The notes beneath the pieces were generated by a model that had not been told where the DNA came from, did no database searches, and saw nothing but the letters and a program-made list of their open reading frames with translations. From assembly GCA_030620115.1 (NCBI GenBank), contig JAUXFG010000141.1, positions 1-10,201 on the forward strand: 10,201 bases of DNA, written 5' to 3'. Positions 1 through 10,201 of the stretch are shown piece by piece. This stretch comes from Candidatus Fermentibacterota bacterium. Its GTDB lineage: Bacteria > JAFGKV01. A program made the translations under genes and the position numbers. Numbering within the stretch: the first letter of the stretch is position 1; the number at the start of each line of letters is the position of its first letter.

Positions 1-3000
1 CTGTCGGTGGAGCTGGCTTTGCCTGCGGTAGGGACACGATGCATGGTGTTGGGCTTCAAGCCTGAGACAGAGGCGGATGCAGAGATACTGATAAGGTATG
101 GAGGGGTGTACGGGGCGCCGGCGTACTTGGTACGGGTGACGCCTGTGCTCCGGCTACAGGGAGAGACAGTAGGATATGGCGAGGGGGGGATCGGGTTAGG
201 TAAGGAGTACAAGGTGTGGTTTCGAGTAGAAGGGCCGAAGGGAGCGTTTGGGGCCCAGGAGATGCGGAAGACCGCGGGGATGCAGTGGGGCGTGGGGATA
301 GTGAGCGGTCGTGTACCTGGTGTATTGGATCGTGTGAGACGCGGCGGGAATAGCGAAGGGCTACATGGGCGGGAGTTGCACGAGTTGGTGATGCGTTATT
401 GGGAAGGTGCGTGGGGTGAGCAGGAACGATTTGGGGAGTTGTGGTGGACGAGGGTAATGAATGAGCCGGATGTGAGCTTGACGTCGACACGGCTTTTGGT
501 GGACAAGGTATATGGGCAGCCGGCAGAAATATCGTGGTGTGGTTTGTATGTGAATGTGCATGCGCGCGTCGGGATAGTGGAGCTGGCGCGGGAAGTGAGC
601 GATCGAGATCTGGTGTGGCGGGGGATGGTGTTTGTGGGGATGGGGACAGCTTCATGGATGGAGCATCGGATATTTGAGGAGAAGTACAAGGTGAGCGCGA
701 TTAGTGCGGTGTTGGCGTTGGAGCGTGGGATAGAGCAGGGGGTTGGAGTATATGATTTGGACAGTACGAATGTGGAGTCACAGTTAGGGATGATGGATTT
801 GCCTGTATGGGCGGAGGAGCGGATCCGCGGGTATGTGCATGAGGGGTACAAGGTAAAGGCAGTGGGCGAGGAGGTGACGCAGGGGGAGTGGGAAGGCGTA
901 GGGTATATGTGTTGGAAGGAGCGAGGAGGAGGAGGATACATAATCCAGCGAGACCTTGGTGGAGGGGAGACCACGGAACCGTTTATCTGGGGAGGATGGA
1001 ACACCTTTTGGATGGTAGTATGTGGATGGCAGAACTACTATCCTGATATACCTACCGGACCGGAGGAAGACAATCTGAACATTCCGTGTGGCTTGTGCAG
1101 CACACGAGTGGAGTGGGAGGGTCCGCCTGACAGTTCGGTGTGGGCGTGGGGGGAGAGTATAGCGGTAAGCCGGTATGACACGCTATTCTGGGAAGACGAA
1201 GAGGAGCCGGAGGTGTTAGGCCCTGACACGTGCTGGTTTCGGACGTGGGAGCACGATCCGGACTTCTGGACATTACGCGCAGAGATCTTTGGTATATATC
1301 CGGATGCCCCGCCAGAATTAGAAGAAGAGCCCATTTTTTATTTTGGTGGAGATACGTTGCGATTTTGGACCGTGAAGGTGGAGGTGGATACCACGCAGTC
1401 GAGTATGCTGTTCGAGGTCCCTCTTGAGGGAGAAGAGGGGGTGAAGGATACGGCTCAGACGGTGTTCACCATACTGCCTGACACCTCATTTTTCGAGAGT
1501 CCAGTGATGGAGTCGTTGAAGTACTGGCATTATGTGACAAGGGAGACAGAAGGAGGCGCAGTCGACACGGTGAAGTCCAAGGTGCGTTTTGGATTGGATT
1601 CGTTGGAGGTGCTGGAGGTCTCAGGAGACCCGTACTGGGTCAAGGAATGGCTGCAGCAGGATGATGAGCATGAATGGTTGGATCCAGTGGATAATCCTTT
1701 CGAGAGCCACATCCGGATGGAGTGGGTGAACCGTGATGAGGAGACGAGGGAGACAACACGACACAACAACGACGAGGAGCACGAAGCAGAAGGGATCGGG
1801 ATCAACCTGGTGGTCTACCTGCCAGGTGGGAGCGCACTTCCGGAAGCGGCTGAACAGGGTGCGGGCAGTGGGATGTTCGTGAAACTGAACGACGACTATG
1901 ATGCAGGGCAAGAAATCCCTGACTGGGAGCTTGAGCAGGTGCCGGGGGAAAATGATCTGGTGAGAATAGAGATCAAGCCAACATTTGATGAAGAAGGGGA
2001 ACTCATCCGGGTTGGGAAGCTGACATTGGAGATTGCGAGAGTTGAGGGCGGAGGTGGAAGGATGGGAGACCTTATTGAGAAGGTGAAGATATGGAAACAC
2101 CGGGAGAAGGGGAGCGGCAATCTGTTGATCGGTGGAGAGGAGGATCCATCGAAGACGTGGGACCTGACATCAGACGAAGACGTGCTGGAGCTCATGAAGA
2201 TCGTGGGCGATGAGCCGAGTGAAACGCTTTGGGTGGAGGGCAGCAAAGAGCCAAGTGAGAGACTAAAGGATTGGCGATTGGTGCTTACCTTGGAGGATGA
2301 GCAGGGGAGTAGAGCAGAGGAGGATGAGGTCGAGGGAACGGTGATGAAACTGAAAGTGAAGAACTATGCATTCCCAGAGAGAATTGCGGATAGGATGCCT
2401 GGTATATGGGTCGGGCTGAACATCGATGATGACAACCGGAATAACATCGAAGACCGAGAGGAAGATGGCCCGATTGCAGCAACACAGCAAAATCAGACGG
2501 TTGTGATCGATGGCGTCACGTACGCCTACGCAACGGATGAAGACAACTTGATGAAGCTATCTCTTGAGATGGAGCCGTTTGTTGATCGAGGCCACGCGAT
2601 GCTTCATCGCACAGATGAGAAGATAAGAGCTTGGAAGGAGCTGACCAAAGGCGCCGACCATGGGATAATCACCGGCGTCGATCATAGCGTTACATGGGAT
2701 CTCTCAGAGTATCCTGGTGATAGATATGAGTTCACCCAAGTAATGGAGGAGTTCTGGGTCGAGGGTGTGGAGAGATCGGCCATGGGGAGGGACTGCGGCA
2801 TTGGCATAGGATATAAACCCGCTGGGTACTCAGCATGCGCGATTGAGGACACGCTGGGCATCACGGTGGGAGAATTGGTGGTGTCCTATCATTGGGCACA
2901 AGGGTCCCCACCCTATCCACGACTCATTTCTTCCTGGGTGGATGTTGAGTTGGTACCGATCTTGGTAGTAGATTCTGATGCCATGTGGGGCGGCGCCTAC

Positions 3001-3981
3001 GATCTGGCAAATGATGGGAAGTTCTACATAACGGGTACCAAACACGGGCCGGAGGACGAGAATCCTGAAGTGGGTTGGTCCAACATCAAACCCCAGGCGA
3101 TTTCGGACTTTCCGAGCATAGAGCCAGGCACCATATTGGGTATGCCGCAGGCGATGAGGGATTACTACAACTGTGAGATCGTCTTGCTGCTTCACAAGGG
3201 GTCAGAACCGCAAGGAGGAAGCAACAGACAGCATTGCTACAATGCAGTTACTCTGGTCAACGCGCCATGGGGTGGCATTCATACCTTCCCGTATCGGGTA
3301 CTGTCCGCGGGTCTCTACAGGCTCAGCGCTCGATTGAAGCCAACAGAAGCCAGCCGTGGCTGCGTGATCGAGTCAAGGAATGGGGCGCATGCGACAAGGA
3401 TCGCTGTGCGAGATGCTTCCGTTTCGGATGATCGGAATAGGACGAGGTTTCTTGAGTGGATGACTGCGTATCTTACTGAGCCTTACGAGTGGGGAGGAGC
3501 ATGGTTCGGTGGCAAGACGACGATGGAGTATGATGGAGCCGATCCCCACTATGATGGCTATGGGATTCAATGTGGTGCGCTGATATGCTGCGGGACGTTA
3601 TGGACAAACTACGGATGGGACCCTTGGTATGTGAGTACCTGGGCGCTAGTAGACCCGCATGAGGCTCCGGATTGCACTGAAGAGCTGTCCAATCCAGACA
3701 GTGTCAGGCCGGGAGATCTGTTGATTTGGCCGGGGGGTCACGTGGTCGCGGTTGTCTCAAGAAGCCCCGAAGGGTCAACGCCGATAATGATCGATGTGAT
3801 AGAGGCTGCGGGGGGATTGACACCATATAACGACTTCCCCAATCGAAACAGAGTCAGATACCGGTGGGACCAGGATCTTCATGATGACTTCCTGGAACTG
3901 CAGCAGGCTCCGGGCTACCCGGAACCTAACTATCATCTCTACAGGCTGAAGGCACCTGCACCGGGCTCGGGTTCAGGATAG
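1..3981 (+). CDS. Large multidomain protein, 5'-truncated: transglutaminase-associated N-terminal segment, acidic middle with two repeated modules, C-terminal NlpC/P60-like peptidase domain
   Basis: The reading frame is open from base 1. GTG at 7 has no Shine-Dalgarno, so the gene almost certainly starts upstream. Residues below count from GTG 7. Residues 1-320 (marks: ETEADAEILIRYGG, PAYLVRVTPVLRL, SAISAVLALERGIEQGVGVYD, WEGVGYMCW) resemble, from memory, the segment after the transglutaminase-like core in large secreted bacterial proteins; the core would then lie off the left edge. Residues 330-620 are rich in D, E and W and unrecognised. Two related modules occupy about 625-765 and 802-945. 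Residues 1144-1315 look like an NlpC/P60 cysteine peptidase: YEWGG at 1160, Cys1189 in GIQCGAL, His1245 in GDLLIWPGGHVV, and Glu1266 in VIEA as possible third residue. NlpC/P60 enzymes usually cleave peptidoglycan peptides, which suggests an extracytoplasmic site. The signal peptide, if any, is not visible. Frame and C-terminal fold are fairly sure; overall role is unknown. Confidence 0.85.
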   Translation: MSVELALPAVGTRCMVLGFKPETEADAEILIRYGGVYGAPAYLVRVTPVLRLQGETVGYGEGGIGLGKEYKVWFRVEGPKGAFGAQEMRKTAGMQWGVGIVSGRVPGVLDRVRRGGNSEGLHGRELHELVMRYWEGAWGEQERFGELWWTRVMNEPDVSLTSTRLLVDKVYGQPAEISWCGLYVNVHARVGIVELAREVSDRDLVWRGMVFVGMGTASWMEHRIFEEKYKVSAISAVLALERGIEQGVGVYDLDSTNVESQLGMMDLPVWAEERIRGYVHEGYKVKAVGEEVTQGEWEGVGYMCWKERGGGGYIIQRDLGGGETTEPFIWGGWNTFWMVVCGWQNYYPDIPTGPEEDNLNIPCGLCSTRVEWEGPPDSSVWAWGESIAVSRYDTLFWEDEEEPEVLGPDTCWFRTWEHDPDFWTLRAEIFGIYPDAPPELEEEPIFYFGGDTLRFWTVKVEVDTTQSSMLFEVPLEGEEGVKDTAQTVFTILPDTSFFESPVMESLKYWHYVTRETEGGAVDTVKSKVRFGLDSLEVLEVSGDPYWVKEWLQQDDEHEWLDPVDNPFESHIRMEWVNRDEETRETTRHNNDEEHEAEGIGINLVVYLPGGSALPEAAEQGAGSGMFVKLNDDYDAGQEIPDWELEQVPGENDLVRIEIKPTFDEEGELIRVGKLTLEIARVEGGGGRMGDLIEKVKIWKHREKGSGNLLIGGEEDPSKTWDLTSDEDVLELMKIVGDEPSETLWVEGSKEPSERLKDWRLVLTLEDEQGSRAEEDEVEGTVMKLKVKNYAFPERIADRMPGIWVGLNIDDDNRNNIEDREEDGPIAATQQNQTVVIDGVTYAYATDEDNLMKLSLEMEPFVDRGHAMLHRTDEKIRAWKELTKGADHGIITGVDHSVTWDLSEYPGDRYEFTQVMEEFWVEGVERSAMGRDCGIGIGYKPAGYSACAIEDTLGITVGELVVSYHWAQGSPPYPRLISSWVDVELVPILVVDSDAMWGGAYDLANDGKFYITGTKHGPEDENPEVGWSNIKPQAISDFPSIEPGTILGMPQAMRDYYNCEIVLLLHKGSEPQGGSNRQHCYNAVTLVNAPWGGIHTFPYRVLSAGLYRLSARLKPTEASRGCVIESRNGAHATRIAVRDASVSDDRNRTRFLEWMTAYLTEPYEWGGAWFGGKTTMEYDGADPHYDGYGIQCGALICCGTLWTNYGWDPWYVSTWALVDPHEAPDCTEELSNPDSVRPGDLLIWPGGHVVAVVSRSPEGSTPIMIDVIEAAGGLTPYNDFPNRNRVRYRWDQDLHDDFLELQQAPGYPEPNYHLYRLKAPAPGSGSG
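1879..2841 (+). repeat. Two tandem diverged protein modules (LNxDDD...TWDL...WVEG) within the large protein
   Basis: This is protein-level duplication. Copy 1 (1879-2301, residues 625-765) has VKLNDDYDAG, NDLVRIEIKP, VKIWK, TWDL at 717 and LWVEG at 741. Copy 2 (2410-2841, residues 802-945) has VGLNIDDDNRNN, DNLMKLSLEM, KIRAWK, TWDL at 896 and FWVEG at 916. The landmarks occur in the same order with similar spacing. Similar Asp/Asn-rich 'N-D-D-D-N' openings followed by a W-V-E-G strand occur in large secreted proteins of several environmental phyla. They are probably beta-sandwich-like stalk or adhesion modules, possibly binding calcium; that role is inferred. Confidence 0.6.
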
Positions 3982-4002: not shown

Positions 4003-6135
4003 ATGAAGGCGTTTGCTGCCGTTTGTGCCTATTTGATGCTCATTGGTCAAAGCCTGGCAGGCTCCGAATTCAACCGTGAAGTACTGGCTACGCTGGAATA
4101 CGGTGTGGGCCCCGGCCAAGCCCTGGTTGTGCAGGAGAGAGGAGGACCAGGCTCGCCAGAAGGCATAACGGATTTCTGGGTATCAGACGGCCTATGCGTG
4201 TGGATAGCCGAAGGCGTTTTGGGTAGGATACAGAAATTCGACAGCAATGGCGAGTTGGATTGGGTGGCCAACAACATTGACTGCATAAATGGCATCGCTG
4301 TTGACGAGAAAGGTTGGGTGTTCACTAGAGGGGGGAGTGGACGCGGAGATGTGACAATAGTGCATCAGAATGGCACGAAGGTATGGGAGACTCTTGGCAT
4401 GTATCCTGGTGGACCGGAAGAGAGAGCCAGGATAGATGCCGTGATACAGAATGTGGAAGGCAGATTCTCTCACAGGGAACGGCGGCTGAGAGGGCTCCGT
4501 GTTGAGGAGGGGAAGACTATTCGAGATAAGCATGGCGGAGAATATAGCATACGGCGGGCGCAAGGGGAGAAGGATCAGGAGAGGGTCTCAATTGAGGTGT
4601 TGGATAGCGCATCAGGGGAAAGCAGAGAGGTGAGAGTACCGGCGGGTTTCTATGTATCTGTGGATGAGGAGGGAAGGATCTGGGTGACCGAGGTTGTAGA
4701 CAGGCCGGAAACCAAGCTGATCATGGACCGTGTGGGAGAAAATCCGGTTGTTTGGGCATCATCTTCGGAGTTGCGAATCGCAGCATACGATCATGAGGGT
4801 CGTGAATTGGCCAGGCTCACGGTTGATCGGCCACCTCACATCATAGGCAGCGCGAACGTTGAAGTGAAGCGGGACGGCTCTGTGGTGCTCTTGGAGTATC
4901 AATCTGATCATGTGGAAGTAGTACGGTACGTATTGGAAGATGACCAAGCCGATGGCGAAGCGGAGCCAGAGGGAGAAGACGCTGCAGAGTTAGTAGGCTT
5001 CAAGCTGAGAAGCACGGATCCGATGGTGCGCCAGATAGGAGTGGAATTGCTTGTATCGAAAGGTCAGAAGGGCCTGGATGAAGTAATCGAGATGTTGGAT
5101 TCGCCGGATGCTAACGTTCGAGGGGGAGCCGCCGAGGCGTTGGGCCGGATTGGGGACAAGAAGGCGGTGGGACCATTGCTTAGGTTGGTTCAGGATGAAG
5201 ATCGATACGTACGACGGCGCGCAGTACAGGCTCTCGGAGAGCTGAGAGCAGAGAGAGCTGTCAGACCACTCGTCGGTAGACTGAGCGACAACGACTGGTT
5301 TGTTCGATGGAAGGTGGCAGAGGCCCTTGGGAAGATAGGGGGATCAGGGGCGATTGAGGCTCTACTCATTGCCCTGGAGGACGAGAATAGATATGTGCGA
5401 GATGAGGCGACGGCCGTCCTTCAGCGCATGAAGGACCCAACTGCTTTGGAGATGATAGCGATGCGTCTTGGACATGAGGATGATCTTGTACGCATTGCCG
5501 CAGCGCGGGTTTTGGAAAGCATTGTCGAGGATACGGGCGATACCCGAGCCCTGCAACCGCTGCTGAAGGCTTTGGACAATCGGTGTGTGAACGTGCAGGA
5601 AATCGCAGCACGGGCACTAGGGCATATTGGCGAGCCTGCTGTTGAGCCTCTCTTGCGTCTATTAAACCACGAGCTCGACTATGTCGTACGGGGAGCGGCG
5701 AAGGCGCTCGGAGAAATCGGGGACCACAGAGCCGTAGATCCACTCCTGGCCCTACTACCCCGATGGGAATACCATGGCGGGACTCGCTACACGAGAGATC
5801 CGTTTGTCAGAAAGATATCCGTGCGAGCCTTGGGGAAGATAGGAGATGCAGCAGCTATAGACTCTCTGGTAAAGATTGTTGAAAGCTCTACCGAAGATTC
5901 TGGAATACGTTCGGATGCGGCAAAAGCGTTAGGTGCAATCGGAGAGCCGGCTCTTTCTGACCTGTTACGCCTAGTCAAGAGTGCCGACTTCCATACTCGG
6001 GGAATCGCAGTGACGGGACTTATGGAGATAGATGACGAACAAGCATCGAAGGCAGTGAAGGACGCACAAAATGATCCCCATGGCTTTGTCCGCACGGTAG
6101 CTCGTCAGGGTTCGGACTATCGCGTCAATCCCTGA
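4003..6135 (+). CDS. Secreted NHL/propeller-like protein with about 12 C-terminal HEAT repeats
   Basis: The 710-residue product starts with a signal peptide (MKAFAAVCAYLMLIGQSLAG; likely cleavage after SLA, residue 19). Residues 25-310 resemble NHL or propeller blades: GRIQKFDSNGELDW at 74 followed by GIAVDEKGWVF at 97, and FYVSVDEEGRIWVTE at 216. An acidic linker (about 311-329) leads to HEAT/PBS-lyase-type repeats from 339 to the C-terminus. The V-R plus A-x-A-L-G-x-I-G pattern recurs near 341, 371, 402, 433, 464, 495, 530, 561, 601, 635, 665 and 696. No catalytic motif is visible. HEAT solenoids with propellers usually bind proteins, so a scaffold or sensor outside the cytoplasm is likely. 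It lies directly behind the large peptidase-like gene with its own good Shine-Dalgarno. The two may work together, but this is inferred from adjacency. The stop is TGA. Confidence 0.9.
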   Translation: MKAFAAVCAYLMLIGQSLAGSEFNREVLATLEYGVGPGQALVVQERGGPGSPEGITDFWVSDGLCVWIAEGVLGRIQKFDSNGELDWVANNIDCINGIAVDEKGWVFTRGGSGRGDVTIVHQNGTKVWETLGMYPGGPEERARIDAVIQNVEGRFSHRERRLRGLRVEEGKTIRDKHGGEYSIRRAQGEKDQERVSIEVLDSASGESREVRVPAGFYVSVDEEGRIWVTEVVDRPETKLIMDRVGENPVVWASSSELRIAAYDHEGRELARLTVDRPPHIIGSANVEVKRDGSVVLLEYQSDHVEVVRYVLEDDQADGEAEPEGEDAAELVGFKLRSTDPMVRQIGVELLVSKGQKGLDEVIEMLDSPDANVRGGAAEALGRIGDKKAVGPLLRLVQDEDRYVRRRAVQALGELRAERAVRPLVGRLSDNDWFVRWKVAEALGKIGGSGAIEALLIALEDENRYVRDEATAVLQRMKDPTALEMIAMRLGHEDDLVRIAAARVLESIVEDTGDTRALQPLLKALDNRCVNVQEIAARALGHIGEPAVEPLLRLLNHELDYVVRGAAKALGEIGDHRAVDPLLALLPRWEYHGGTRYTRDPFVRKISVRALGKIGDAAAIDSLVKIVESSTEDSGIRSDAAKALGAIGEPALSDLLRLVKSADFHTRGIAVTGLMEIDDEQASKAVKDAQNDPHGFVRTVARQGSDYRVNP

Positions 6136-6499: not shown

Positions 6500-6691
6500 A
6501 TGCCACGAGGACCAAGACTTGATACCACGGGCGCGTTGCATCACGTAATGGTGCGTGGGATTGAGCGGTGCAAGATTTTCCGGTCCAACAAGGACCGCGA
6601 GGACCTTCTGAATCGATTGGCCGACATTGTTGTTTCCTCGGGAATGTCGGTGTACGCCTGGAGCCTGCTCCGGAATCACGCTTTATGTTGA
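6500..6691 (+). pseudogene. REP-associated tyrosine transposase (RAYT, Y1/IS200-like), 5' fragment cut by the RIT element
   Basis: The frame begins MPRGPRLDTTGALHHVMVRG and continues IERCKIF, KDREDLLNRL and VYAWSLLRNHA, a very typical RAYT N-terminus. RAYTs are single-copy Y1 HUH transposases, about 200-300 residues or more, linked to REP palindromes. Homology ends after Asn-His-Ala (His60); the family motif continues as His-Leu-Leu. The next codons, tta tgt tga, come from the inserted element and stop the frame at 6689-6691. The first His of the catalytic His-x-His is present; the second His and the tyrosine helix are missing. The remnant is therefore inactive. No Shine-Dalgarno is evident before ATG 6500; the start rests on the conserved MPRGPR opening. 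The rest of the gene should lie beyond the right edge of the window. Confidence 0.85.
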
Positions 6692-6702
6692 GCTCAACAT
6701 AA
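6683..6702. repeat. 20-bp perfect palindrome at the left junction
   Basis: ttatgttgagctcaacataa is its own reverse complement. It abuts the last RAYT-like codon and precedes the 35-bp terminal repeat by 3 bp. Each half matches the ATTATGTGGAG motif of the terminal repeat with one change in the shared part (T for G), so it is probably a pair of opposed recombinase half-sites. Confidence 0.75.
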
Positions 6703-6705
6703 TGC

Positions 6706-6740
6706 GTGCTATGTGAAGTTCCGCATTATGTGGAGTTGAT
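6706..6740 (+). repeat. Left terminal inverted repeat of the RIT element
   Basis: These 35 bp are the exact reverse complement of 10167-10201. They start GTGCTATGTGAAG and end CATTATGTGGAGTTGAT. After a 6-bp interruption, CCCTCCTT (6747-6754) is also mirrored at the right end (10159-10166), where it directly adjoins the repeat. This suggests a longer ancestral repeat with one indel. Confidence 0.95.
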
Positions 6741-6781
6741 GCGTTTCCCTCCTTGGTTCTGGCCCCATTGTAGACATCAGC

Positions 6782-7813
6782 TTAGTGATTAACTACACAT
6801 AATCTGGGGTCTCTGGCAAGGGCGTTGAGCCACTGCAAGACATGCGGTTTGTGCCAGGGGGCTTGCTTACTGATGCTGGGCGGTTCGGCTTTGGCGAGCA
6901 TCCTGCGTTTGGTCTCCATGTCGATTTCCACATAGATGTGGGTGGTATTGAGATCCGCGTGCCCCAGCCAGTAGCTGACCATGTTGATGTCGTTGCCCGA
7001 GCGCAAGAGATGCATTGCGGTGGTATGTCTGATGGTATGGGGGTTGAGCGGCTTGCTGGTGAGTGACGGTTGTTTGGCTTTGGCCCGAACGCCATACGAG
7101 CGGGTCACATAGCGGATACCGAAGCGGGTGATGGGATCCCCGTTGGCGTTAAGGAACACGTGTTCAATGCCTGCCGTTTTGGGCGTGCGCTGCTCGATGT
7201 AGGCCTCAACGGCAGCGACGGTCTCAGGCCACAGAGGACAGGAACGCTCCTTGTTACCTTTGCCGTGGAGTCTGATCTGTGGCGAGCCGACCAAGCGCAA
7301 GTCGGCAAGCTGAAGGGTCACGATCTCGCTGACGCGGGCGCCGGTATTGTAGAGCAGCAGAAGGAGGGCTCGGTCCCGGATCCCCGTGCGTGAGTTGATA
7401 TCGACAGCATCAAGCACGGCCTGCATTTCGTTCTCTTCGAGATAGTCTATGGTTTTGTGCTTGGTGCGCTTCAGTGGGATAGCACGGACCTGCTGACACT
7501 GCACCAGGAGTATAGGTTCCTCCCGTGCGATAAAGGCGAACAGGCTGCGGATAGCCGCCAGGCGGGAGTTGCGCGTACGGGCGGAGCACCCCCGCGTCTG
7601 TTCGAGGTCATCGAGGAATCTGAGCACGAGCGGTTCGGCAAGATCTTCCACGGCCAGGAGATCCACAGATTTGTGGAGGCTATCCGCAGCGTAACAGAGC
7701 AACAGTTTGACCGTATCGCGGTAGACTCGCACGGTGTTGACCGAGAGCCCTTTCTGCACCGGCAGATAGTGGCTGAAGAATCGTTTCAGCAGGGGGGCCA
7801 AGGGATGAGTCAT
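6782..7813 (-). CDS. ritC: Tyrosine recombinase RitC (third gene of RIT element)
   Basis: This 343-residue XerC/D-like site-specific recombinase has an N-terminal SAM-like core-binding domain (about 1-100) and a C-terminal catalytic domain (about 120-300). The catalytic set is complete: Arg160 (TGARVSE), Lys185 (HGKGNKER), His259 and Arg262 (HTIRH), His285 (LGH) and the nucleophile Tyr294 (THIY). A roughly 45-residue tail after the tyrosine, with WHKPHVLQWLNAL, is in keeping with RitC proteins. ATG 7813 overlaps the ritB stop in an ATGA junction. A GGAG Shine-Dalgarno (7824-7821) lies 7 nt upstream, so translation is probably coupled to ritB. The end of the gene runs through an inner copy of the terminal-repeat motif (6788-6803), and it stops at TAA. 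It should act with RitA and RitB on the element ends. Confidence 0.93.
   Translation of the reverse strand: MTHPLAPLLKRFFSHYLPVQKGLSVNTVRVYRDTVKLLLCYAADSLHKSVDLLAVEDLAEPLVLRFLDDLEQTRGCSARTRNSRLAAIRSLFAFIAREEPILLVQCQQVRAIPLKRTKHKTIDYLEENEMQAVLDAVDINSRTGIRDRALLLLLYNTGARVSEIVTLQLADLRLVGSPQIRLHGKGNKERSCPLWPETVAAVEAYIEQRTPKTAGIEHVFLNANGDPITRFGIRYVTRSYGVRAKAKQPSLTSKPLNPHTIRHTTAMHLLRSGNDINMVSYWLGHADLNTTHIYVEIDMETKRRMLAKAEPPSISKQAPWHKPHVLQWLNALARDPRLCVVNH
6788..6803 (-). repeat. Inner copy of the terminal motif at the left end, inside the ritC 3' end
   Basis: Read on the - strand this is ATTATGTGTAGTTAAT, matching 14 of 16 bases of 6725-6740 in opposite orientation, with 47 bp between them. It encodes the last residues of RitC. 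It is a likely extra recombinase binding half-site. Confidence 0.55.
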
Positions 7814-8718
7814 GATCGTTCTCCGTGAGACGTGACGTTCTTCACATAGTAGGTGTGGAACCGATTGTGGACTTCGCCGAGCAACTCGGCAGTGGGTTGC
7901 AGGTAGACTTGAGTCGAACTGATATCTACATGTCCCATATAGGTAGCAAGGGCCGGAAGCCTGGCGTTGACATCCTGTCCGTCTCGATACCAGGCCAGCA
8001 GCCGATGAACGGCAAAGGTGTGACGTGCGTCATGGATGCGCGGGCCGTGGTGTTTGCTTTTAGCGATGCCGCACTGTGCAAGCAGGCGCTTGAACGTTTG
8101 ATGGACCGAGGAGTGACAGAGCCGCCGACCACGCTCGTTAAGCAACAGTGGCGAGTCCGTCGAGCGAGGTTTTCTCTGCAGCCGTCTGTCGAGGTATTGG
8201 TGCAATGCCTGGGAGGTAGAGCCGCTCAACGCGATCCAGCGAGCCTTGCGGAACTTGCCTTCGGCGATATAGAGCCGCTGCTCATTCACGTAGAAGTGTT
8301 CCACGTTCAGCGCGAAGGTTTCCCCGATCCGTATGCCGGTGCTATAGAGAAGACCCAGCAACGTGTGGAACGTGTGCGGTCGCAAGGATCCAGGGGGCGG
8401 CAGATCAGAGGCGGCTGCCAACAGTGCCCGGACTTCGTCCAAGCTGTAGATATATGGCTGATGAGCCCCATGCGGAGGGGGCGTCCGCAGTGGCTCGGGT
8501 ACATAGCTGAGCGGATCGGTTCCGGCCAGGTATTTACAGAACTGGCGGACCACACTGAAGCGGTTGCCCTGGGTGCGCGGCGCAAGCATCGAAAGAGACT
8601 GCTGATACCGATCGGTGATCTGGCGGGTGAGGCGTGGCTCGCTCAGCTTTTGTTGGACCAGGAAACGGTCGAAATACCCCAACAGGAGAGCCTGCGAAGC
8701 GTAGTCAGTGCCTGACAC
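7810..8718 (-). CDS. ritB: Tyrosine recombinase RitB (second gene of RIT element), start uncertain
   Basis: As drawn from GTG 8718 the product has 302 residues. The catalytic set is complete: Arg130 (TGIRIGE), Lys155 (EGKFRK), His229 and Arg232 (HDARH), His263 (MGH) and Tyr272 (TQVYLQ). The GTG start has no Shine-Dalgarno and is probably not the ancestral start. The same frame continues upstream as KIENFINLRR, which resembles the first helix of RitB-type recombinases. The natural start is ATG 8784, which overlaps the ritA TGA as ATGA and has AGGAGG 7 nt upstream, but its fourth codon is TGA (8775-8773). RitB is thus either made from a weak internal start, made by readthrough, or is a recent pseudogene whose catalytic domain has not yet decayed. 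The 3' end overlaps ritC by 4 bp. Confidence 0.85.
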   Translation of the reverse strand: MSGTDYASQALLLGYFDRFLVQQKLSEPRLTRQITDRYQQSLSMLAPRTQGNRFSVVRQFCKYLAGTDPLSYVPEPLRTPPPHGAHQPYIYSLDEVRALLAAASDLPPPGSLRPHTFHTLLGLLYSTGIRIGETFALNVEHFYVNEQRLYIAEGKFRKARWIALSGSTSQALHQYLDRRLQRKPRSTDSPLLLNERGRRLCHSSVHQTFKRLLAQCGIAKSKHHGPRIHDARHTFAVHRLLAWYRDGQDVNARLPALATYMGHVDISSTQVYLQPTAELLGEVHNRFHTYYVKNVTSHGERS

Positions 8719-8784
8719 ACGACGCAGGTTGATGAAGTTCTCGATCTTTGTCGCTAAACAACTGCACAGCTTTCATGCGCTCAT
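8719..8784 (-). other. Upstream in-frame extension of ritB with TGA at codon 4
   Basis: Reading down from ATG 8784 gives Met-Ser-Ala-stop, then an open stretch (LCSCLATKIENFINLRR) that joins ritB in frame. No ATG, GTG or TTG lies in that stretch before GTG 8718; only CTG codons do. A second ATG at 8776 is in another frame and ends after 23 codons. A single C-to-T change (CGA to TGA) would explain the stop. Confidence 0.7.
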
Positions 8785-10046
8785 TCGCTCACCTCCTGTG
8801 GCCAGTCCAGGGCTACCTGCTTCAGCGCGTTGAAATCCACCTTGGTATAGATGAACGTAGTGGAGAGATGGCGATGGCCGAGGACGTCGGCTACGGCTTT
8901 GAGGGAATGACCCTCCTCGACCATGCGGGTGACAAAGCCATGTCTGAAGGCATGTGTGCCTTTACTCGGGATGTCGATACCGGCAGCCCGTATGCGGCGC
9001 TCCGCCATGGCGGAAAGGATGTCGGGATGAAGCATCGGATGAAACGGTGATCGAGAGGTCAGAAAGACCTCGGGGAAAGAACAATGCGGACGGGCGTTTT
9101 GCAGATAGTCCAGCAGGCTCTCGCCCACCTCCCTGGTCAAGGGCAGGAGACTGTCTTTGCCGTGCTTGGAAGCCTTGAATAGGATCCGGTTCTCGGCCCA
9201 GTCAATATCCTCAAGGCGGAGCGCACGAACCTGTCCGCCACGTACACCATAGGCATGGAGGAGTTGGATAATCGCATAGTCACGACGCCCCGCATCGGTT
9301 GCTCGATTTATGCAGCCCAGTACCTGTTGGGCCTGGGTCTCGGTCAACCCGCGTGGAACCGTGCTCAGCTTGTACGTTCGCAATGTGGGCACTGCCAGGT
9401 CTAGGGGCTGGTGAATATAGCCGTGGTGCAAACAGAACCGGAAAAACGTGCGCAAAGCCGCTTGCATCGAGCGGCGGGCCGATCGGCCCATCCTGTGCGC
9501 ATACCACAGGAAAAACGCCTCAACCCTTTCAGGGCTTAGCCTTTCCAAGCCCTGCCGTGTAGCCTCCGAGCCAAGCCATTCAAGGAATTGACGTATACAA
9601 TGAGCCCGAAGCGCCACGGTGCCTTCAGCGGCATGCCGGTAGCCCCGCATCCACTCCAGGTAAGCATCAACAAGGGGCTGATACTGTGCCTGCCGCGGTA
9701 AGGGATCGAACAGCCCCTTGTGGTGAAGGTAGCCGGTGAAACGATTGATCGAAGAGCGGACTCGATGCAGGTACTCCTCAAGCGGCCCCCGGTTCCGGCA
9801 CCATGAAGGGTACGCCTGGAAGAAGCCCTCAACATCCTTTACCGTAATCCTAACCTGGGGCTTCGCTGTTGGACCGCCCAAGTACTGATTGAAATGTGAT
9901 ACGTTCCCTATATGCGTCCGAATGGACCAGCGGCTGAAGCCCTTGCTCACCAACCAGTCGCAGAACCCATCGAGAAGCTGACACAACGGCCCACTTCGCA
10001 GCCGATCACATGTCCGTGGACACTCAAAGACCTGTTCCAACGCCAT
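8781..10046 (-). CDS. ritA: Tyrosine recombinase RitA (first gene of RIT element)
   Basis: The 421-residue product is the longest of the trio, as expected for RitA. An extra N-terminal region (about 1-115) precedes the core-binding domain (about 120-215) and the catalytic domain (about 232-405). The catalytic set is complete: Arg269 (YGVRGGQ), Lys294 (ASKHGK), His365 and Arg368 (HAFRHG), His391 (LGHRH) and the nucleophile Tyr400 (TTFIY). The ATG has AAGGAGG 5 nt upstream, so the start is firm. A 7-bp hairpin lies just before the Shine-Dalgarno. The gene ends with TGA 8783-8781, overlapping ATG 8784 as ATGA, which is the same junction type as ritB/ritC. RitA would cut and join DNA at the element ends with RitB and RitC, but the division of labour is unknown. 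Confidence 0.94.
   Translation of the reverse strand: MALEQVFECPRTCDRLRSGPLCQLLDGFCDWLVSKGFSRWSIRTHIGNVSHFNQYLGGPTAKPQVRITVKDVEGFFQAYPSWCRNRGPLEEYLHRVRSSINRFTGYLHHKGLFDPLPRQAQYQPLVDAYLEWMRGYRHAAEGTVALRAHCIRQFLEWLGSEATRQGLERLSPERVEAFFLWYAHRMGRSARRSMQAALRTFFRFCLHHGYIHQPLDLAVPTLRTYKLSTVPRGLTETQAQQVLGCINRATDAGRRDYAIIQLLHAYGVRGGQVRALRLEDIDWAENRILFKASKHGKDSLLPLTREVGESLLDYLQNARPHCSFPEVFLTSRSPFHPMLHPDILSAMAERRIRAAGIDIPSKGTHAFRHGFVTRMVEEGHSLKAVADVLGHRHLSTTFIYTKVDFNALKQVALDWPQEVSE
8792..8797 (-). promoter_or_regulatory. Shine-Dalgarno for the ancestral ritB start
   Basis: AGGAGG on the - strand lies within the last codons of ritA, 7 nt before ATG 8784. The spacing is ideal for that ATG and much too far (about 73 nt) from GTG 8718. 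It therefore argues that ATG 8784 is the original ritB start. Confidence 0.75.
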
Positions 10047-10051
10047 AACAA

Positions 10052-10058
10052 CCTCCTT
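10052..10058 (-). promoter_or_regulatory. Shine-Dalgarno for ritA
   Basis: AAGGAGG on the - strand is followed 5 nt later by ATG 10046. It is a strong site that fixes the ritA start. Confidence 0.85.
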
Positions 10059-10060
10059 CC

Positions 10061-10082
10061 CTTGCCCCGTTCATCGGGCAAG
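10061..10082 (-). promoter_or_regulatory. Hairpin in the ritA leader
   Basis: CTTGCCC (10061-10067) and GGGCAAG (10076-10082) are perfect inverted repeats around an 8-nt loop, ending 2-3 nt before the ritA Shine-Dalgarno. There is no following T run, so a simple terminator is unlikely. It may be an operator or a leader structure affecting ritA translation. Confidence 0.4.
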
Positions 10083-10104
10083 TCAGAGATAGCTATAGCA
10101 CGGA

Positions 10105-10119
10105 ATTATGTGCAGCAAT
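10105..10119 (+). repeat. Inner copy of the terminal motif at the right end, upstream of ritA
   Basis: ATTATGTGCAGCAAT keeps 10 of the first 11 bases of ATTATGTGGAG and is inverted relative to the right terminal repeat. The start-to-start distance between inner and terminal motifs is 77 bp here and 78 bp at the left end. It lies in the ritA leader and could let recombinase binding affect ritA expression. Confidence 0.45.
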
Positions 10120-10140
10120 ACCTATCATATGTGTCGGAAT

Positions 10141-10157
10141 GCCCTGGGAATCAGGGC
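10141..10157. repeat. Short perfect inverted repeat inside the right end
   Basis: GCCCTG (10141-10146) and CAGGGC (10152-10157) form a 6-bp stem with a 5-nt loop, 9 bp inside the right terminal repeat. No T run follows. It has no obvious equivalent at the left end. Confidence 0.4.
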
Positions 10158-10166
10158 GAAGGAGGG

Positions 10167-10201
10167 ATCAACTCCACATAATGCGGAACTTCACATAGCA
10201 C
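10167..10201 (-). repeat. Right terminal inverted repeat of the RIT element
   Basis: This is a 35-bp exact reverse complement of 6706-6740. It reaches the last base of the window, so 35 bp is a minimum length. The left end predicts that the palindrome motif follows at once. Confidence 0.95.

Follow-up and report, generated by a model that had tools for sequence, protein, structure and literature searches.

It was found that the ritB gene of a RIT element (recombinase in trio; Van Houdt et al. 2009 and 2012, PMC3414803) is interrupted by a TGA stop at its fourth codon, while the element is otherwise intact. The element lies in a contig of a Candidatus Fermentibacterota bacterium, and the whole stretch of 10,201 nucleotides that was analysed is called the window here. 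It is quite probable that a genuine, recent nonsense mutation from TGG to TGA has disabled RitB, and with it probably this RIT copy. A sequence-only reading of the window had offered three options, namely a disabled gene, a gene limited by readthrough or restart, and a read error. The list was right, and disabling is now favoured, while a restart at the GTG at 8718 is disfavoured.

The RIT element occupies positions 6709 to 10198 on the minus strand, between the outermost half-sites CTATGTGAAG (6709) and CTTCACATAG (10198), with the gene order ritA-ritB-ritC. It has the length of a RIT, about 3.5 kb (here 3.49 kb, or 3,490 bp), and is bounded by terminal inverted repeat arms (6706-6759 and 10148-10201) that are 83% complementary over 54 nt. 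The ritA gene (8781-10046, minus strand) is intact, encodes a 421-aa tyrosine recombinase (PF00589, E=4e-24), and is co-linear with the RitA of L004-L007. The ritC gene (6782-7813, minus strand) is also intact and encodes a 343-aa tyrosine recombinase (PF00589, E=7e-34). Between them, ritB (7810-8784, minus strand) has 324 codons and a stop if codon 4 is read through. PF00589 is matched by all three adjacent recombinases on the same strand, which form the gene trio of a RIT, and both junctions are short 4-nt overlaps of the ATGA type, as had been noticed before (ritA/ritB at 8784-8781 and ritB/ritC at 7813-7810). The catalytic residues of RitB are kept in the alignment. An intact copy has three translatable recombinases with their catalytic residues, but here the ritB frame is stopped at codon 4. 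Judged by its sequence, the element belongs to the RITs by descent, and one of its genes is broken. Upstream in the window, a 1,326-aa open frame (1-3981) enters from the contig start and matched no Pfam family at E 0.001; after it comes the gene for a 710-aa HEAT-repeat protein (4003-6135).

The start of ritB is well formed, as the sequence-only reading had described. Its ATG (8782-8784, minus strand) overlaps the stop codon of ritA, and a Shine-Dalgarno sequence AGGAGG (8792-8797, minus strand), which most relatives also have, lies 7 nt before ATG 8784. The duplex with the anti-Shine-Dalgarno sequence was estimated at -11.6 kcal/mol for this ATG, compared with -12.3 for ritA and -6.6 for ritC. 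The minus strand from 8784 to 8773 reads ATG AGC GCA TGA (Met-Ser-Ala-stop), with the premature TGA at 8773-8775, and the next 320 codons are open down to the TGA at 7812-7810. The first in-frame ATG, GTG or TTG past the stop is the GTG at codon 23 (8716-8718, minus strand), which lacks a Shine-Dalgarno sequence; no anti-Shine-Dalgarno duplex was obtained for it. In addition, an ATG at 8776 overlaps the premature TGA as ATGA and opens an out-of-frame ORF of 23 codons (8705-8776, minus strand; stop at 8707-8705).

Is codon 4 a stop in related RIT elements? Seven close relatives came out of a scan of genome contigs; six of them have a complete RitB start and are 58-65% identical to the window RitB. 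In all six, the equivalent of ATG 8784 is the start. Their RitB length is 323 or 324 codons, except in L008, whose gene is cut by a deletion, and the RitB of L003, L004, L005, and L007 equals the window ritB in both length and start. The six align with the window in every codon, across the TGA and beyond it, with no indel, and the frame is conserved on both sides of the stop. Residue by residue, the window sequence MSA*KLCSCLATKIENFINLRR can be aligned to MSAWTLCSCLAEEIEKFIRLR and MSAWTLCSCLAGEIDKFIKLRR, which come from relatives having the same ritB start, and it is not a chance reading frame. The aligned N-termini are MSA*KLCSCLATKIENFINLRRVSGTDY for the window, MSAWTLCSCLAEEIEKFIRLRCLSGTDY for L008, MSAWTLCSCLAGEIDKFIKLRRLSGTDY for L004, MNAWTACSCLAPQIERFIELRRLSGSSY for L003, MRAWTLCSCLAEEIGKFIKLRCLSGTDY for L007, MKAIEFHSCLAAELQRFVELRRAGGSDY for L005, and MQTIIFHSWLSKQICHFIELRRLSGTDY for L006. 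Codon 4 is TGG (Trp) in L003, L004, L007, and L008, L005 and L006 have a codon for Ile instead, and none of the six has a stop there. Since there is no indel relative to these genes, the lesion in the window is a substitution, most simply TGG to TGA by a G-to-A change. A single-base indel was considered, because a start at ATG 8776 followed by a one-base slip would read MKAVQLFSDK-IENFINLRR, and was rejected because the relatives align gap-free to the frame of ATG 8784 and their counterparts of ATG 8776 open short frames only.

The sequence-only reading had also suspected a conserved helix just past the stop, and this proved correct: the helix is kept in every RitB examined, including distant ones. 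The start lies ahead of the helix in the more distant RitB sequences (L049-L057, from a further search) and in the RitB of the genome's second RIT, and no stop is present there in any of them. In plasmid RITs of Rhizobium, Rhodococcus, and Methylovirgula, the annotated RitB uses the overlapping start and has a few residues in front of the helix; in one Bradyrhizobium entry, the annotation begins further upstream. Homologues that start at the position of GTG 8718 and lack the upstream helix would have spoken against the proposal; they were looked for, and none was found among the RitB sequences examined. An AlphaFold2 model of RitB built from seven sequences is confident in the N-terminal domain only. 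The predicted helices at residues 11-24, 28-44, 54-63, and 69-89 correspond to the usual four-helix core-binding domain, the first of them being encoded by codons 11-24 (8713-8754, minus strand; block pLDDT 87 for residues 11-20). A fold search with this model gave matches to Xer and integron integrases, which are weak because only the N-terminal domain is confident.

According to the model, a restart at GTG 8718 (residue 23) would lose the helix 11-24 almost completely. The GTG also lacks a Shine-Dalgarno sequence. Translation of a shorter but working RitB after a restart, either at this GTG or at a start outside the standard set, for instance CTG 8769 (codon 6, 3 nt after the stop), is highly improbable. 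It is true that codons 2-7 are variable and that some plasmid RitBs start at about codon 7. Since the first seven codons vary among the relatives, a weak non-standard start at codons 5-10 could restore an almost normal RitB. However, restarting ribosomes would probably favour the ATG 8776 that overlaps the TGA, which is in the wrong frame, over GTG 8718.

UGA is a normal stop codon in this genome: TGA ends ritA, ritB, and the upstream HEAT-repeat gene, the prfB gene for RF2 is intact, and rpoB has no internal stop. Genome-wide reassignment of UGA to a sense codon was rejected on these grounds. On the other hand, the host genome encodes a tRNASec with the anticodon UCA (L030, G000:C115:25493-25586), which scores 75 bits, above the Rfam cut-off, and the host probably makes selenoproteins. 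Insertion of selenocysteine at codon 4 of ritB was rejected in spite of this tRNA, since no SECIS-like fold was found after the premature TGA, where the RNA folds no better than shuffled sequences (z-scores 0.5 to 1.0), and this codon stands for Trp or Ile in the relatives and not for Cys. Thus, the gene has neither a recoding signal nor a reassigned code to make it a UGA-recoded gene, and a selenocysteine or reassigned reading of the UGA is close to refuted.

The stop may still leak. If tRNATrp read the UGA, the Trp found at codon 4 in four of the six close relatives would be restored, and a low but useful amount of RitB would be made, with the stop acting as a brake on transposition. The absence of drift after the TGA would fit this idea. 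The base following the TGA is A, and an A directly after UGA is a favourable context for readthrough. UGA is also misread more than UAG, with rates from 0.04-0.08% in two Pseudomonas species up to about 12% in one reporter in E. coli (PMC9481147); a trace of RitB is plausible because such misreading varies widely between hosts. However, no other RitB examined has a stop at codon 4, which argues against a conserved device, and no stimulatory structure follows the stop. The tRNATrp gene, located by similarity, has the anticodon CCA and a normal anticodon stem of 5 bp, so that a shortened anticodon stem, an idea taken from PMC13092985, was discarded. All in all, useful leakage is quite unlikely. 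That the UGA has been kept as a regulated brake, with RitB made solely through Trp misreading and transposition held low and dependent on translation fidelity, is very unlikely, and the comparison of RitB sequences does not support such a brake by conservation.

An error of assembly or consensus, or a base of a minority strain taken into the metagenome assembly, would mean that in the population 8773-8775 is a sense codon and ritB is intact. The genome is a 296-contig draft, the contig end falls inside the RIT's own repeat, and the rest of ritB looks to be under selection, all of which would suit an error. However, the lesion is a single substitution and not the usual homopolymer indel, the three recombinase genes and the two long upstream ORFs are otherwise open, and the second RIT of the genome has a nonsense codon too. 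An error is unlikely on balance. No second copy of the window's RIT was found in the 296 contigs, and no near-identical element was found in plasmids, viral contigs, or related genomes. Apart from the window's element, the assembly yielded a single RIT (L002; G000:C290, 1-1900), which belongs to another subgroup, with a RitB 37% identical to that of the window; it has a single in-frame TAA in ritA and a partial ritB at the contig end. Among the close relatives, a deletion in L008 fuses ritB to ritC, and L009 is missing the first part of ritB. Together with the nonsense codon of the second RIT, these cases indicate that single lesions are common in RIT copies here. Broken RIT genes have already been reported for plasmids (PMC3414803).

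Under the favoured explanation, a nonsense mutation that disables RitB, ribosomes starting at the strong ATG 8784 would make a three-residue peptide and then stop. Those that restart would most likely be caught by the overlapping ATG 8776 and led into the 23-codon dead-end frame. Full-length RitB would arise at trace level only, via near-cognate misreading of UGA by tRNATrp, and ritC may lose part of its coupled translation. By analogy with the RIT-like GInt elements, in which all four genes of ginABCD are needed for excision and integration (PMC5385486), the loss of RitB should stop RIT movement. This RIT copy is thus probably immobile, or dependent on RitB supplied from elsewhere, for example by another RIT, and the codon-4 stop would decide whether the element is still mobile, as had been proposed from the sequence.

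How old is the lesion? The change had been called very recent, and this could only be bounded. At 95 alignment columns that are invariant in the other RitB sequences, the window differs at 4, while close intact relatives differ at 2-7. No excess of changes at conserved positions was seen, so that the loss of function may be recent or incomplete. In ritB, 3.9% of single-base changes would create another stop, and none was seen; the frames of ritA and ritC are open, and both genes are co-linear with those of the relatives. From these comparisons, the neutral divergence since inactivation is estimated at less than about 4%. Since ritB has no sign of pseudogene drift, either the change is recent or a little translation of the gene persists.

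The insertion site of the element was also inspected. The RIT of the window breaks a RAYT/Y1-like transposase gene exactly at its H-x-H (HUH) motif. The 5′ half of this gene (6500-6682, plus strand; a weak match to PF01797 positions 7-52) ends in ...SLLRNHA at the motif. The RIT of L009 likewise adjoins a RAYT 5′ half ending in NH-x (...CLMGNHI), while the RITs of L005, L006, L007 (at both ends), and L008 adjoin RAYT 3′ halves that begin with H-x-H. In three of the RAYT halves, the match to NF047646 begins at its position 58 or 62. The shared 6-bp spacer CAYNNN encodes H-x. A 20-bp palindrome TTATGTTGAGCTCAACATAA (6683-6702), which consists of two element half-sites, lies between the end of the RIT and the interrupted RAYT gene and is flanked by the 6-bp spacers CACGCT (6677-6682) and TGCGTG (6703-6708). 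The order is spacer, palindrome, inverted spacer, RIT, and spacer, the inner spacer being the reverse complement of the outer one, or nearly so. The same arrangement on the 5′ side was found in L009 and L004, and with 18-20 bp in two G134 copies (L059 and L061). G134 is a 6-Mb genome with four copies of one RIT (L058-L061) whose ritB genes match. In the left flank of L059 and L061, a radC-like gene is apparently broken near its HNH motif, another stretch of H-x-H codons; a RIT in radC has been reported (PMC3414803). In L007 (938-946 and 4475-4490), the RIT is flanked on each side by the 3′ half of a RAYT gene; the two genes differ, and their halves are inverted relative to each other, as would be expected from a recombination between two opposite RIT copies. 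From these junctions, this RIT clade appears to insert repeatedly in RAYT/Y1-like transposase genes at their HxH motif, and the independent insertions of relatives in different RAYT genes lend indirect support to the mobility of the clade. No description of RAYT targeting by RITs was found in the searchable literature, a scope outside which key RIT papers lie.

These results settle the RitB start in this clade, and a single early nonsense codon separates the window copy from an apparently complete RIT. They are further evidence for a frequent inactivation of RIT copies through single lesions, which is an ordinary end for a mobile element. They say little new on mechanism; for RIT biology, the pattern of insertion at the HxH motif of RAYT genes is probably a more useful lead. 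A demonstration of RIT transposition is not given in PMC3414803. The window element resembles known RITs in its three adjacent tyrosine recombinase genes with 4-nt overlaps, its length of about 3.5 kb, its terminal inverted repeats, and the overlapping palindrome beside one end, but differs in the nonsense codon at ritB codon 4 and in its location in a RAYT gene. GInts also have three tyrosine recombinases or their relatives per operon. In contrast to the window element, which has only three genes between its repeats, they have a fourth gene, ginD, and cargo DNA. The strand-biased circularizing integrative elements (SEs) and Tn554-like elements likewise have several tyrosine recombinases, and 6 bp of flank enters their transposition product (PMC10214605), which may be compared with the 6-bp spacer here. 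However, they have cargo genes and a small fourth protein, and the window element is not an SE by gene content.
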